From: Nitrospira sp.
GTDB lineage: Bacteria > Nitrospirota > Nitrospiria > Nitrospirales > Nitrospiraceae
NCBI GenBank assembly: GCA_025361385.1
Contig: JANYAJ010000329.1
Coordinates: forward strand, 1 to 15,993
Length of the DNA: 15,993 nucleotides
Direction of reading: 5' to 3'
A program made the translations under genes and the position numbers. The notes under the pieces were generated by a model, which was not told the origin of the DNA, made no database searches, and was given only the letters and a program-made list of their open reading frames with translations. This document shows, in pieces, positions 6,844 to 11,041 of the stretch (position 1 is its first letter; every line of letters begins with the position of its first letter).

Positions 6844-8088
6844 CTATAACTTGCAGGTATTCTGCTCAACCGTCCCCGCAACCAGATCGCTGGCAACCGT
6901 GGCCAGTATCTTGTAGTGGCCCAGTCCCAGCTCCTTCCCGTATGCCTCCCCCACGAGTACATCCTGCACATGTTGATGGTCCCACGTGCGGAAGGACGAT
7001 GGACCCACCTTCAATCCATCGAACTCATGTCCTTCCAGGGCCTTGATGAGGCCGACAGTCTCTGTCGTCCCGGCCCGTTGAATCGCTTCCAGAATCTGAG
7101 TCATTGCCGCATAGCCAAGATAACAACGCGACGTCGGTGTATGGTTGTATTTGTCGATCACGCCCTGGATGAACCGTCTCGAGCTATCCCTGTCGATCTT
7201 GGGATCCCAGATCAGACCCCAGATGCCGGCATTATTGGCATAGCCCAACGGGCGACCGATCTGTTCACCCGCGATCATGCCACCCACGCCGATCTTCTCT
7301 TTGGCCAACTCCAGCTTCGCGTAGGCCTTCAACGCATGCACGAGATCCCATCCATAGAGATTCAAAATGATTGCCGTGGGGTTCTTGGCCTTTGCCTCAG
7401 CAAAAGCCGCTACAAAGTCGGTTGAGCCGAATGGCGTGACGGTCTCTCCGACGAAATCGACCGCGAGGGACTTGCCTGCCTCCAGCATTGCCTGTGCCGC
7501 CGCCGTGCCATCGACGGTGGCAGCCGTGATCATGTACCAGCGCGTCCCGTAGGCTTTTGCAATGTGTGGTGCGACCGCCTGCGCCATCATCCTTGCATTG
7601 GGCATGAAGACGAAGGTCTGCCGGTTACAGGCTGCTCCCGTCAGCTCGGGAAGGTGTGCACCCGTCACCATGAACAGCGTATTTTCCTTCTGTGCCAGGG
7701 CACTGACGGCAAGCGCGCAGTCCCCGTTGAAGGTTCCCATCAGCACATCGACCCGGTCTTCTTTGATGAACTTCGTCGCCCCCTTCACGGCAGTCTCCGG
7801 ATTCGATGCATCATCCGCTTCGAGGATGACGACCGGTCGGCCCAAGACACCACCCCTCTTGTTGAACCAGTCCACCGCAACGTTGGCGCCATGGACATCA
7901 TGAATCGACGACGTTTTGTAGGGGCTCGACAATGGATCGAGTATGCCGATCTTGATCGGCTCACCCGTGGCGGAGAGACTTGCTCTCCCCGTAAGCCCCA
8001 TCACTGGTCCAATCAGGTCTCCGAACATCAAGGCACCACCGGTTACTGCGGAAAGTTGCAAAAACCGTCTGCGTGAAAACTCGGTCAT
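6844..8088 (-). CDS. ABC-type periplasmic substrate-binding protein (type I fold, Tat signal)
   Basis: The 414-aa product begins with a twin-arginine signal (SRRRFLQ at 5-11, then a hydrophobic stretch to about 32), so it is probably exported folded. From about residue 44 (EPIKIGILDPLSSPYKTSS) it matches the branched-chain amino acid/urea/amide-type receptors (LivJ, UrtA, AmiC superfamily): GANVAVDWFNKRGGVLGRPV, then a nucleotide-independent Rossmann-like lobe, VDVLMGTFNGDCALA, and the second lobe with MITAATVDGTAAAQ. No permease or ATPase genes (LivHMGF/UrtBCDE type) lie in this window, so the transporter must be elsewhere or the protein acts as a sensor or binding protein. Ligand is unknown; UrtA or AmiC identity is not supported enough to name. 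AGGAGGG lies just ahead of the ATG at 8088. It is the last gene of a probable three-gene unit with the PPOX protein 59 bp upstream. Confidence 0.85.
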   Translation of the reverse strand: MTEFSRRRFLQLSAVTGGALMFGDLIGPVMGLTGRASLSATGEPIKIGILDPLSSPYKTSSIHDVHGANVAVDWFNKRGGVLGRPVVILEADDASNPETAVKGATKFIKEDRVDVLMGTFNGDCALAVSALAQKENTLFMVTGAHLPELTGAACNRQTFVFMPNARMMAQAVAPHIAKAYGTRWYMITAATVDGTAAAQAMLEAGKSLAVDFVGETVTPFGSTDFVAAFAEAKAKNPTAIILNLYGWDLVHALKAYAKLELAKEKIGVGGMIAGEQIGRPLGYANNAGIWGLIWDPKIDRDSSRRFIQGVIDKYNHTPTSRCYLGYAAMTQILEAIQRAGTTETVGLIKALEGHEFDGLKVGPSSFRTWDHQHVQDVLVGEAYGKELGLGHYKILATVASDLVAGTVEQNTCKL

Positions 8089-8147: not shown

Positions 8148-8747
8148 TCACGATTTCCTCGTACGAAGTTCGGCCTCCAGCTCGGCAATACGCCTCCTCA
8201 AGGAACCGGCAAGCTCCTCGACCTCTTCCGCCGAGTAGCGCGGCGTAATGTACTTCGGGCAGTTCCAGTCGAATGTGACCACATCGATGAAGACTAGCCG
8301 TTCCACGCTCGACCGCATGTTGAGGTCAGTCACCTGTTCGGTCAGTTCCGGATGAGCACGAGCATCCTCGATCCTGGCATGGCCCAGAATTTTCAGCCGT
8401 TCGCGATTCTTGTAGTCCATGAGAAATAGCGCCACCCGGTCGTTCACCGACAGGTTGCCCGTGCTTAGCAGTTGCCGATTGCCCTTGTAGTCGGCAAAGA
8501 CCAGAGTCGTTTCGTTGAGCAGCCGCAAAAATCCTGCAGGCCCCCCTCGATGCTGAATATATGGCCACCCGCTTTCACTGATCGATCCCAGGTAGAAGCT
8601 GTCCCGAGTGGCAATGAAGTCCGCCTCTGCCTGGCCCAATGGGTCTCGGTTGGGGGCGCCCGCAATCTTGCCGGCCTGTCCGTAATACTGGGTTTGCGCA
8701 CGGCATACGGCATCCGTGAACATCAGATCGAGGTATTTCGTTGCCAT
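8148..8747 (-). CDS. Pyridoxamine 5'-phosphate oxidase-like (PPOX, split-barrel flavin-binding fold) protein
   Basis: The 199-aa protein has the six-stranded split-barrel pattern of the PPOX/general stress protein 26 superfamily: ADFIATRDSFYLGSISESG (42-60), WPYIQHRGGPAGFLRLL (61-77), TLVFADYKGNRQLLSTGNL (81-99), RVALFLMDYKNRERLKILG (104-122) and a closing HARIED strand. The GNRQ and RERLKI segments correspond to positions that contact the FMN phosphate and ring in relatives. A charged helix (174-197) forms the C-terminus. It is unlikely to be the true PdxH; members bind FMN, F420 or haem and often act as reductases or detoxifying enzymes, so substrate is open. AGGGAGAGG just ahead of the ATG at 8747 sets the start. 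It lies 71 bp after the DsrE gene, across a perfect hairpin. Confidence 0.85.
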   Translation of the reverse strand: MATKYLDLMFTDAVCRAQTQYYGQAGKIAGAPNRDPLGQAEADFIATRDSFYLGSISESGWPYIQHRGGPAGFLRLLNETTLVFADYKGNRQLLSTGNLSVNDRVALFLMDYKNRERLKILGHARIEDARAHPELTEQVTDLNMRSSVERLVFIDVVTFDWNCPKYITPRYSAEEVEELAGSLRRRIAELEAELRTRKS

Positions 8748-8782: not shown

Positions 8783-8810
8783 TAGGAGACGGCCGTGAGG
8801 CCGTCTCCTA
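8783..8810 (-). terminator. Perfect 12-bp hairpin between the DsrE and PPOX genes
   Basis: TAGGAGACGGCC (8783-8794) pairs with GGCCGTCTCCTA (8799-8810) around the loop GTGA. It starts 8 bp after the DsrE stop codon. No U-run follows it on either strand, so it may be a weak or factor-assisted terminator, a processing site, or an mRNA-stabilising hairpin that adjusts expression of the downstream PPOX and binding-protein genes relative to DsrE. Confidence 0.6.
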
Positions 8811-8818
8811 GAATTGAC

Positions 8819-9193
8819 TCAAAATACGACCGTCTGCCAGCCTTCCGCCAGGTAGCGCCGCAAACTTAAGAGGCCTGCTGTCCCAGCCAATGCATGGTCC
8901 TTCACCATCGGGACTCCGCAAGCCTTGACACTTTCCGTCGCTCCAAAGACTTCCGCACAACCGCATGAGGCGCCTTGCACGACATCGCGAACGGCGTTGT
9001 AGAGGCCATTAGCCGGATGCGAGAGTTTGGTCAATTCAGCCGGCCAGCGCGTGCCGGCGCCGTTGAACACTACGGCGACTTCGTCGCCCTTCTGTTTACA
9101 TTCGGACGCCAGGGCCAGTGCATTAAAGACTCGCCCAAGCGCTTCTTCGGAACCACTCTTCGGATCGGACAGAATGATGATGGCAGTTTTCAT
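8819..9193 (-). CDS. DsrE family protein
   Basis: A 124-aa DsrE/DsrF-like protein. The N-terminus MKTAIIILSDPKSGSEEALGR is the usual opening strand and helix of the fold, followed by NALALASECKQKGDEVAVVFNGAG and a C-terminal part with SCGCAEVFGATESVKACGVPM. Cysteines lie at 32, 77, 79 and 92; C77-G-C79 is near the position where sulfur-relay members carry their active cysteine, but DsrE-fold proteins have many roles and sulfur transfer is not proven here. The ATG at 9193 is preferred over an upstream in-frame ATG at 9244 because AAGGAGA lies four bases ahead of it, the family begins there, and the upstream start lies inside the 20-bp palindrome. It is the first gene after the sigma-54 promoter and ends 8 bp before a hairpin. 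Confidence 0.88.
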   Translation of the reverse strand: MKTAIIILSDPKSGSEEALGRVFNALALASECKQKGDEVAVVFNGAGTRWPAELTKLSHPANGLYNAVRDVVQGASCGCAEVFGATESVKACGVPMVKDHALAGTAGLLSLRRYLAEGWQTVVF

Positions 9194-9227
9194 GGAATCT
9201 CCTTGGATGGAATGAGCGCTGCGATAT

Positions 9228-9243
9228 TGCACTGCGATGGCCA
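9228..9243 (-). promoter_or_regulatory. Second, weaker -24/-12-like element
   Basis: On the minus strand TGGCCATCGCAGTGCA keeps the GG and GC pairs at the correct sigma-54 spacing, with TGGC and TGCA matching. It lies within and beyond the palindrome at 9231-9250, so half of the match is forced by that palindrome. It would start transcription near 9217, about 23 nt before the DsrE start codon. It may be a secondary promoter or chance. Confidence 0.3.
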
Positions 9244-9250
9244 TCGCAGT
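9231..9250. repeat. Perfect 20-bp palindrome at the predicted sigma-54 transcription start
   Basis: ACTGCGATGGCCATCGCAGT is its own reverse complement. It begins at the start site predicted for the promoter at 9261-9276, so it would be the very 5' end of the DsrE mRNA, or an operator for a dimeric repressor sitting just downstream of the polymerase. The ribosome-binding site is 27 or so bases further on and is not part of it. Confidence 0.75.
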
Positions 9251-9260
9251 TCTGCACTAG

Positions 9261-9276
9261 CGCAAGGCCGATGCCA
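9261..9276 (-). promoter_or_regulatory. Predicted sigma-54 (-24/-12) promoter of the DsrE gene
   Basis: The minus strand reads TGGCATCGGCCTTGCG. This matches the sigma-54 consensus TGGCAC-N5-TTGC in nine of ten fixed positions, with the invariant GG and GC correctly spaced. Predicted start of transcription is near 9250, 57 nt ahead of the DsrE ATG. The gene immediately upstream encodes a sigma-54 activator, which strengthens the call. Confidence 0.72.
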
Positions 9277-9381
9277 GAAAGAATAACAGGCATGAAATAA
9301 GAGGAGAAAAGAGCGGTATCAATGACTTGAGTGATGTGGAGACGAGAAGATAATCCGTACAGCGATGCGATCCTGCCACGG

Positions 9382-9403
9382 GATATCGTAGCGCCACGAT
9401 ATC
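9382..9403. promoter_or_regulatory. Inverted repeat, candidate activator-binding site (UAS)
   Basis: GATATCGT (9382-9389) and ACGATATC (9396-9403) form a perfect 8-bp inverted repeat with a 6-bp spacer. Its centre lies about 120 bp upstream of the -24 element and about 140 bp upstream of the predicted start, the usual range for enhancer sites of sigma-54 activators. It is 30 bp after the stop of the activator gene. The stem is AT-rich in part with no U-run, so it does not look like a terminator. Confidence 0.55.
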
Positions 9404-9432
9404 TCATGGGAGGTAGGCAGGGATCGATATGA

Positions 9433-11004
9433 TTAGGTGAGACGGGGTTTCTTAATACCGAGCTTCTTCATGCGAGAGCGGAGGGTGTTGGGATGGAGAT
9501 CCAGACGAGTGGCTGCACCCTGCTTCCCTTCAATGACCCAGTTGACCTCCTGTAGGACATGGAGGACATGCGCCCGTTCGACTTCTTCCATGGTTCCCTC
9601 GCGATGTGAGGGTACGGAGGCCGCATGGAGGAATGCGTTATCGATCTGCAGCATCGGCCCATTCGCGAGAATCGTCGCCCGTTCGATCACATTTTCCAGC
9701 TCACGAATGTTGCCGGGCCATAAATAGGTCATCAGACGGTCCATAGTCGCGTGAGACACACCGTCAAATCGCTTGCCAAGTTTGGCTGAAAACTTTGCGA
9801 TGAAGTGGCTGACCAAGGACGGAATATCAGCGGCACGGGCAGACAGGGGTGGCACCTCGATCGGAAACACATTTAGCCGGTAGAGGAGATCGGCCCGGAA
9901 GGAACCGGCCTTTACCGCCGCATGTAGATCGCGATTGGTCGCGGCGATCACCCGCACATCGACTTTCGTCGAATGACCGCTGCCGACCCGTTCGAATTCC
10001 CGCTCCTGCAACACCCGTAGAAGTTTCACCTGCGCGTCCAGCGGGAGTTCTCCCACTTCGTCCAGGAAGATCGTCCCTCCATCCGCCAATTCAAACCTGC
10101 CAATGCGGCGCTGTAATGCCCCGGTAAACGATCCCTTCTCATGCCCGAAAAGTTCACTCTCGAGAAGATTGGCGGGGATTGCGCCGCAGTTCACCTTCGC
10201 GAGGAAACGAGCCCTGCGCGGGCTCATATGGTGGATCGCCCTGGCGATCAGTTCCTTGCCCGTCCCGGTATCCCCGCGGATGAGGACCGTTGAGTCGGTG
10301 GGTGCGACCTGTTCGATCGATCGCAGTACGGCCTTGATACTCTGGCTCTCGCCGATGATCTCTTCAAAGTTATGTTCGAGTTTGATCTCTTCACGAAGGT
10401 AGAGGTTCTCGGCTTGCAGCCGATCTTTGAGCTGTTGAACTTCCGTAAACAACTGCGCGTTCTTGATCGCAATCGCAGCCTCATTGGCAAAGACCGCCAA
10501 TCGCTCGAACTCCTCTCCGCTCAGCGGCCGGCGTCCGAACATCGCGATGACGCCGAGCAGTTCCCAGCGGAACTTCAGCGGGTGGCCGGCAAAGGAGCGG
10601 AGACCATTGTCGGTCATCCATTGTTTATTCGGAAGTCGCTCGTCGCCGAGTACGTCGTTCGTAAAAATGGCGCCGGATCCTTGCGCGATTTTTCCGATCT
10701 TCAATGCACCAAGCGGAATGCGGCGATATTCTCCGTTGAGATTGGTATAGAGCCCGGCACTGGCTTCAAGATGGAGGCAACGGCTCCGGTTCGCACAGTC
10801 GGCTGCTTTGTAACAGTCGGCACAGAGATCGCCGGGACCTAAGAGCCAGATGCGGGCGAAGGCCGCATCCAACTCCTCCACCAAACCTTGCGTGATCGTA
10901 GCCAGTACGACTTGGAGGTCGAGACTCGACGCCATCTGGAGCGTGATTCGCTCCAATACGTTGGGAGATTGAGACGGAGGAACCGAGGGGGGAACGGTGC
11001 TCAT
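9433..11004 (-). CDS. Sigma-54-dependent transcriptional activator (GAF - AAA+ - Fis HTH)
   Basis: A 523-aa enhancer-binding protein. Residues about 15-185 form a GAF sensor, with an insertion holding four cysteines at 61, 64, 70 and 76 (C-x2-C-x5-C-x5-C) just before LHLEASAG. A linker helix (186-210) leads to the AAA+ domain: Walker A GDTGTGKE (244-251), the sigma-54 contact loop GSFTGA (291-296, usually GAFTGA), Walker B TIFLDE (311-316), ATNRDL (355-360), and arginine-finger region FRADLLYRLNVFP (369-381). The C-terminus holds a Fis-type helix-turn-helix (about 496-516, GAATRLDLHPNTLRSRMKKL). There is no receiver domain, so it probably senses a ligand, metal or redox change directly through the GAF domain. 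GGAGA eight bases before the ATG supports the start; that site lies in a hairpin. Its likely target is the DsrE promoter just downstream. Confidence 0.95.
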   Translation of the reverse strand: MSTVPPSVPPSQSPNVLERITLQMASSLDLQVVLATITQGLVEELDAAFARIWLLGPGDLCADCYKAADCANRSRCLHLEASAGLYTNLNGEYRRIPLGALKIGKIAQGSGAIFTNDVLGDERLPNKQWMTDNGLRSFAGHPLKFRWELLGVIAMFGRRPLSGEEFERLAVFANEAAIAIKNAQLFTEVQQLKDRLQAENLYLREEIKLEHNFEEIIGESQSIKAVLRSIEQVAPTDSTVLIRGDTGTGKELIARAIHHMSPRRARFLAKVNCGAIPANLLESELFGHEKGSFTGALQRRIGRFELADGGTIFLDEVGELPLDAQVKLLRVLQEREFERVGSGHSTKVDVRVIAATNRDLHAAVKAGSFRADLLYRLNVFPIEVPPLSARAADIPSLVSHFIAKFSAKLGKRFDGVSHATMDRLMTYLWPGNIRELENVIERATILANGPMLQIDNAFLHAASVPSHREGTMEEVERAHVLHVLQEVNWVIEGKQGAATRLDLHPNTLRSRMKKLGIKKPRLT

Positions 11005-11012
11005 CGTGTTAT

Positions 11013-11041
11013 CTCCGAGCCGACCATCGGCCGGCTCGGAG
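11013..11041 (-). terminator. Hairpin between the HEAT gene and the activator gene, overlapping the activator's ribosome-binding site
   Basis: CTCCGAGCCG (11013-11022) pairs with CGGCTCGGAG (11032-11041), a perfect 10-bp stem around a 9-base loop. It begins 12 bp after the HEAT-gene stop. No U-run follows on the minus strand. The downstream arm contains the GGAG that serves as ribosome-binding site of the activator gene, so the fold would also hide that site. It could be a weak terminator, a translational brake, or both. Confidence 0.55.

Follow-up and report, generated by a model that had tools for sequence, protein, structure and literature searches.

A GAF-type sigma-54 activator with a predicted tandem enhancer site as the probable local switch of a DsrE-PPOX operon in Nitrospira

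Introduction

Which genes are served by a sigma-54 activator encoded directly upstream of a short operon in Nitrospira, and through which DNA sites might it act? The question is raised by a 15,993-nt stretch of Nitrospira sp. DNA (contig JANYAJ010000329.1, assembly GCA_025361385.1; hereafter the window, whose own genome is 3.05 Mb and 82% complete). On its minus strand lie, in order, the genes for a HEAT-repeat protein and the activator, a 239-bp gap, and the genes for a DsrE-like protein, a PPOX-type flavin-binding protein and a periplasmic binding protein. An initial annotation had marked an inverted repeat and a -24/-12 promoter in the gap and a ribosome-binding site before DsrE, and had proposed that the activator controls the downstream genes. 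The activator, the repeat, the promoter and DsrE with its ribosome-binding site all lie where it had put them; its list of elements, correct in the features named, did not include a site for integration host factor (IHF) and a palindrome at the predicted transcription start. Nitrospira are important nitrite oxidisers whose regulation is little known. The elements that carry the argument are as follows.

9433-11004, minus strand: sigma-54 enhancer-binding protein, the activator (Pfam GAF, Sigma54_activat and HTH_8)
9394-9409, minus strand: site 1 (distal) of the upstream activating sequence (UAS), CCATGAGATATCGTGG, from conservation
9376-9391, minus strand: UAS site 2 (proximal), CTACGATATCCCGTGG, from conservation
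9317-9329, plus strand: IHF-consensus site TATCAATGACTTG, about -79 to -67, agreeing at 9 of 9 consensus positions
9262-9276, minus strand: -24/-12 promoter TGGCATCGGCCTTGC, an exact match
9250, minus strand: predicted transcription start (+1), 12 nt past the C of TTGC
9231-9250, minus strand: perfect 20-bp palindrome, +1 to +20, beginning at the predicted +1

Very probably, to judge from the comparison of sequences, the activator is a single-component sigma-54 regulator with one local target, switching the DsrE-PPOX operon with or without the binding-protein gene. Just behind its own gene, two tandem CYACGA-N4-TCGTRG palindromes would be occupied by dimers of its HTH domain, and an IHF/HU-type bend near -75 would bring these dimers to RNA polymerase-sigma54 at -24/-12. 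A signal received by the GAF domain would then lead the AAA+ ring to open the promoter, and the operon would be transcribed from about 9250. What is proposed is a precise and testable unit of regulator, operator and promoter with one likely target.

The tandem UAS and its distance to the promoter

When the gap was aligned across 25 loci that have this activator upstream of DsrE (class A), the UAS appeared as two tandem 16-bp palindromes, CYACGA-N4-TCGTRG, with centres 18 bp apart, which together occupy 9376-9409. The repeat first reported, GATATCGT-N6-ACGATATC at 9382-9403, is present but is not the whole element: it forms the inner half of the tandem palindromes, and their outer halves are conserved too. 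The UAS copy of the window has two mismatches to invariant positions.

The arrangement was then sought with 34 activator copies (the window and L061-L099, with 55% identity or more and a match reaching at least residue 495), taking the best UAS up to 700 bp behind each copy and a -24/-12 anywhere 34-300 bp further on. Both UAS sites (21-24 of 24 positions) and a -24/-12 accompany 31 of the 34, and L094 has a single UAS site with the promoter. From UAS start to -24/-12 the distance is 132-134 bp in 32 of the 34 copies (133 in 28, 132 in 3 and 134 in 1); a second, weaker -24/-12 match stands at offset 166 in the window, L063 and L087. A larger set of 43 distinct rows gave offset 133 in 31, 132 in 10, and 134 and 131 in 1 each, but only offsets of 131-135 and UAS scores of 16 or more were admitted to this set, so that it cannot reveal other offsets. 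Comparison between loci shows a tandem UAS, a -24/-12 promoter, a near-constant spacing between them and a linkage of the UAS to the activator; relatives that have retained both activator and operon genes also conserve the -24/-12 and the repeat.

The palindromes might instead serve the activator gene, as its autoregulatory operator or its terminator, with DsrE driven otherwise. They do begin close to that gene, 14-37 bp past the matched activator end and 13-61 bp past the stop in unbroken copies (the 61-bp value is from L064, whose activator has a gap). However, they keep an almost fixed distance of 132-134 bp to -24, whereas their distance to the activator end varies, as does that from -24 to the DsrE ATG (83-110 bp in loci with DsrE first). 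In addition, the palindromes of the window have no U tract after them and are located behind, not before, the activator gene, and loci with a cousin activator (see below) have similar half-sites before the operon's -24/-12 in a divergent gap. We consider this account very improbable.

A further alternative is that the conservation reflects the shared ancestry of the locus, with no regulatory meaning, all class A rows being orthologous. In the 31 rows with offset 133, which correspond to an effective number of 18.4, the UAS columns carry 1.21 bits of information on average and the promoter columns 1.37, values inflated by the choice of rows for having these elements, against 0.51 in the spacer, 0.58 from +1 to +20 and 0.27 in the later leader. 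Loci with another regulator, moreover, lack the elements, and the cousin activators have a related pair around them, which makes ancestry by itself an extremely improbable explanation and argues for the proposed circuit. Two more distant activators have comparable sequences behind them. The KSB1 locus L194 encodes an activator whose GAF domain is 65% identical; behind it come two similar palindromes spaced 19 bp apart, then, 115 bp further, a weaker -24/-12, TGGTACACGGGTTGC, and an isochorismatase-like gene. Behind the Desulfobacterales activator L200, the pair is weak (15 of 24) and a -24/-12 stands at 132.

The promoter, the start site and the IHF-type site

The promoter, at first described as near-consensus, proved to be an exact match at 9276-9262. 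TGGCAY-N5-TTGC occurs once in the window, compared with a mean of 0.088 in Markov windows (84 of 1000 with one) and 21 of 20000 for Markov versions of the 239-bp gap. The DsrE ATG at 9193 lies 57 nt downstream of the predicted +1 at about 9250, and both figures match those originally given. The palindrome that begins at this +1 is of the TGYGA-N6-TCRCA form, which we take to be CRP/FNR-like; its core GATGGCCATC recurs in close relatives and a KSB1 locus, and GATGGCCATCGC stands in the same register in L194. Two further readings of this region were rejected, namely an RNA hairpin at +1 (pairing at 48 of 120 pairs in 20 sequence clusters, equally high in 553 of 5000 arm shuffles) and a leader peptide at +7 (30 of the 43 rows have ATG or GTG there, but the frame ends scatter widely).

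The IHF consensus is WATCAR-N4-TTR. Family-wide, the column of the window's site is the best, with a cluster-weighted mean of 6.35 of 9 that permuted patterns reach in 4 of 3000 cases (9 of 3000 with the gap kept). Rotated clusters reach it in 0 of 5000, which is a weaker control because shared descent is ignored. The best IHF-type match falls at, or one off, that column in 24 of the 43 rows, with per-row scores of 6-9 of 9, consistent with a bend between UAS and promoter.

Genome-wide search for further targets

In 147 family genomes, the tandem UAS with at most two mismatches was found at 34 sites in 33 genomes, compared with 3 for a control pattern. Each of the 34 immediately follows an activator gene, be it intact, broken or a remnant. 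This was judged by gene coordinates except in three genomes, where tblastn was used: G040 and G104, which have C-terminal remnants, and G008, whose activator is split over two frames. There is one tandem site in each of 32 of the 33 genomes with a match, and one in the window's own genome; G037, with two activator copies, has a site behind each. Since every such site stands behind an activator, one local target is likely. A wider regulon in the own genome was considered and rejected, as single sites with at most one mismatch were no more frequent than those of the control pattern (21 against 33). The own genome has rpoN, as do 139 of the 147 family genomes.

Some loci depart from the simple layout. 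L078 has two successive activator-UAS-promoter-DsrE units, and in L061 PPOX is duplicated, with DsrE and binding-protein genes that are each partial. The activator is broken or a remnant in L093, L094, L061, L064, L247, L248 and L249, with UAS and promoter mostly still there.

Several observations weigh against the proposed circuit. L098 keeps its UAS, but the promoter is weakened to TGGTGCCCGTCTTGC at offset 133, and L093, whose activator has a stop, has lost the gap and has neither UAS nor promoter. No such element was found behind L195, a 57% identical activator of a Desulfobacterales genome. The rows share descent, so that the counts above are not independent. When three mismatches are allowed, the tandem pattern gives about 60 sites in 48 genomes and is no commoner than the control, although two three-mismatch sites (G028 and G091) do stand behind activators. 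The himA cut-off is passed by no protein of the own genome, which has three weaker HU/IHF-family matches; it is passed in 1 of 14 control genomes. The circuit does not account for the palindrome at +1, and the structure model of the GAF domain, which bears on the clustering of the cysteines discussed below, is unusable (predicted local distance difference test score of 40).

Three regulators at one operon

The regulators at the operon were compared in 60 stretches hand-chosen from activator and DsrE matches (DsrE matches occur in 72 of the 147 genomes, not all included). With the window, these contain 57 DsrE copies that share 55% identity or more and start within the first 20 residues; partial copies were dropped, and L101 and L102 yield identical figures. 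Class A accounts for 30 of the 57, with UAS and -24/-12 in 28 (27 tandem, L094 single) and L093 and L098 as exceptions. Class B (11 copies) has the same DsrE-PPOX operon with a divergent ABATE/CGNR zinc-finger regulator (PF07336, PF11706), a protein unrelated to the activator. Here the UAS-promoter pair was found in 0 of 11 loci, and a strict -24/-12 or ACGA-N4-TCGT within 900 bp also in 0 of 11; L088 has a loose -24/-12 score of 21 (class A range 20-23), but no strict match. Class C (16 copies) has the divergent cousin activator, of about 47% identity. An ACGA-N4-TCGT site followed 79-81 bp on by a -24/-12 was found in 15 of its 16 loci, ahead of the extra genes and then DsrE-PPOX; in L114 the promoter is present and the second site decayed. 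The class A element is absent from all 16.

The absence of the class A element with the other regulators, together with the ACGA-N4-TCGT core ahead of the cousin -24/-12, is counted in favour of the circuit. The earlier proposal that the activator controls the downstream genes thereby gains support, UAS and promoter being conserved with the activator and both missing where the regulator type is replaced.

On a DsrE-PPOX tree of 51 rows (L093, L094, L098, L102 and others left out), the three regulator labels need 9 changes, where 2 is the minimum and shuffled labels need 21.9 on average. Many branches are weak; counting only the well-supported ones, 3, 4 and 2 changes are required for A, B and C. 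Two class B rows fall within the window's own eight-row clade (support 98/80). From these label changes, regulator and promoter appear to have been exchanged together, repeatedly; transfer of whole operons may be the alternative. Such an exchange ahead of one gene pair would amount to a natural experiment in regulatory rewiring. One class C cassette, L105 (G130:C2, a contig of 273451 bases), may lie on a Nitrospira plasmid, and the DsrE protein P0061 is named '(plasmid)' in its source.

The target genes and their possible role

The genes and RNA features downstream of the promoter are listed here.

9199-9204, minus strand: ribosome-binding site AAGGAG of DsrE, read from the sequence and aligned across class A loci
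8819-9193, minus strand: DsrE-like protein of 124 residues (Pfam, weak)
8783-8810, minus strand: intercistronic DsrE/PPOX hairpin with a 12-bp stem and no U tract, from folding
8148-8747, minus strand: PPOX-type flavin-binding protein (PNPOx_N above the Pfam cut-off)
6844-8088, minus strand: periplasmic binding protein, a lineage-specific third gene (Peripla_BP_6 above the cut-off)

The DsrE-like product scores 19.9 bits against PF02635, under the gathering score of 22.7 for DsrE/DsrF membership; a few DsrE homologues among the matches listed carry PF02635. Its Cys79 and Cys92 are nearly invariant in 16 aligned copies. The PPOX protein matches TIGR04025 weakly (50 bits, cut-off 170), and the binding protein has a Tat-like signal with a TAT_signal score under its cut-off. 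Among solved structures, no chain matched PPOX and nothing credible was found for DsrE, whereas the fourth gene, encoding the binding protein, was matched by binding proteins.

The target set is, from gene content, a DsrE-PPOX core with exchangeable extra genes, which include those for the binding protein and for YHS, MOSC, isochorismatase-like, SnoaL-like, alpha/beta hydrolase and DUF1348 proteins. The first gene past the promoter is YHS in L065, L081 and L097, MOSC in L095 and alpha/beta hydrolase in L071; AhpD-type CMD proteins occur in class C as well, and L101 has an SDR enzyme. In genome G078 the promoter likewise has an alpha/beta hydrolase gene after it, which would put the transcription start ahead of the hydrolase, and the DsrE gene has an internal TAG. 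Because the extras around the core are exchangeable, the regulon first put forward as DsrE, PPOX and binding protein stands in its DsrE-PPOX core, and the binding protein is a lineage-specific part of it.

ABATE proteins have been proposed as stress regulators (PMC2954205, available excerpts). From this proposal and the nature of the target genes, we more tentatively infer that the operon is a stress or detoxification cassette.

The hairpin between DsrE and PPOX may be an mRNA processing or stability element. Folding of 54 DsrE-PPOX gaps (two gaps under 30 nt dropped) gave a median z of -3.1 against mononucleotide shuffles, with 29 below -3 and about ten near zero; the gaps between PPOX and the binding-protein gene, folded in comparison (n = 25), gave a median z of 0.2 and 0 of 25 below -3. 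The fold is retained in class A, B and C loci alike, where the sequences that form it are unrelated.

The sensor domain and comparison with known systems

By its domains, the activator is a group 3 (GAF) enhancer-binding protein, a known kind whose order is GAF, AAA+, HTH (PMC7175178, available excerpts). It has a GAF domain, a sigma-54 AAA+ domain with a GSFTGA loop (GAFTGA-type) and a Fis-type HTH, without a receiver domain, and a -24/-12 and a UAS stand at its predicted target; the candidate IHF site between UAS and -24 is placed as in an IHF-assisted sigma-54 promoter. Against NCBIfam equivalogs it scores 360.6 for NorR (cut-off 476), 391.9 for NifA (cut-off 528.85) and, best of all, 417.9 for FhlA (residues 135-522; cut-off 830), and it differs from FhlA in that the window has no formate hydrogenlyase genes.

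C-x2-C-x5-C-x5-C is found inside the GAF match, at residues 61-76 of the window activator, and is kept in 12 of 12 aligned activators; the four cysteines are kept in 118 of the best 120 of 824 homologues, whereas class C proteins keep only the first two (nine aligned). Among the 51 loci L193-L243, 8 have a similar motif: KSB1, Desulfobacterales and Nitrospira activators as well as L193, L198 and L199, which a crude motif scored as histidine kinases. More distant GAF domains in that set (36-47% identity, many cyanobacterial) were without it, and among solved structures no chain matched the GAF region, the best stretches starting at residue 181 or later. The conserved signature suggests, more tentatively, a metal, Fe-S (iron-sulfur) or thiol redox sensor, and makes signal sensing a defined question for biochemistry. 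L198 and L199 are long Nitrospirota proteins, hybrid histidine kinase-like by the crude motif, and the activator homologue P0189 is named Nitrospira lenta in its source.

Two known sensors could account for the signal. NorR target genes are adjacent to norR. In domain order, tandem enhancer sites, IHF-type site and -24/-12, the locus resembles NorR and norVW (PMC4601167, available excerpts), and the activator could then be a nitric oxide switch, its GAF domain holding the mononuclear iron described for NorR (same source) and its operon serving nitric oxide defence. However, the NorR score is under the cut-off, no NO-reductase family was found among ten cargo proteins scanned, and the conserved signature is four cysteines, the ligand set of NorR being Arg, Asp, Asp, Cys, Asp; NorR also has three sites, compared with two CYACGA-N4-TCGTRG sites here, and other target enzymes. 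Such a switch is decidedly unlikely, and the circuit is best described as built like NorR-norVW around an activator that, from its sequence, is itself not NorR.

NifA, AnfA and VnfA share the GAF-AAA+-HTH order, and the AnfA/VnfA cysteine motifs, tied to the sensor region, are known or presumed to bind Fe-S clusters (PMC7294313, available excerpts). An N-terminal Fe-S cluster could likewise make the present activator oxygen-sensitive. However, the NifA score is under its cut-off; the motif of A. vinelandii AnfA (residues 21-26) precedes the GAF domain (33-193) according to the same excerpts, whereas the cysteines here are inside it and otherwise spaced; and no nitrogenase gene was found in the window or the scanned cargo. 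An oxygen sensor of this type is unlikely, and the single-component circuit with its own four-cysteine GAF is preferred.

A wider reading, tentative and to our mind somewhat short of an even call, is that the C-x2-C-x5-C-x5-C GAF is a new metal, Fe-S or thiol module common to sigma-54 activators and probable histidine kinases of several phyla and, jointly, that the four-cysteine activator is one of three interchangeable inputs (with the CxxC cousin and ABATE/CGNR), each swapped with its own promoter and driving one DsrE-PPOX stress cassette.

The initial annotation knew of no named system with this gene set. A literature search, reaching few subscription papers, likewise gave no description of it or of this activator, and no paper on Nitrospira DsrE with sigma-54 or on DsrE with isochorismatase, SnoaL or MOSC. 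Papers on cysteine or Fe-S GAF activators concerned NifA/AnfA or were reviews, the motif not being found in their available text, and the Nitrospira passages in the available part of PMC3162934, on enhancer-binding proteins and sigma 54, concern phylogeny only.

Upstream of the activator gene, a sigma-70-like promoter, TTGACA-N17-TATCGT, lies at 11071-11043 (two such matches in the stretch, two expected by chance), and an inverted repeat was read by eye at about 11014-11041.

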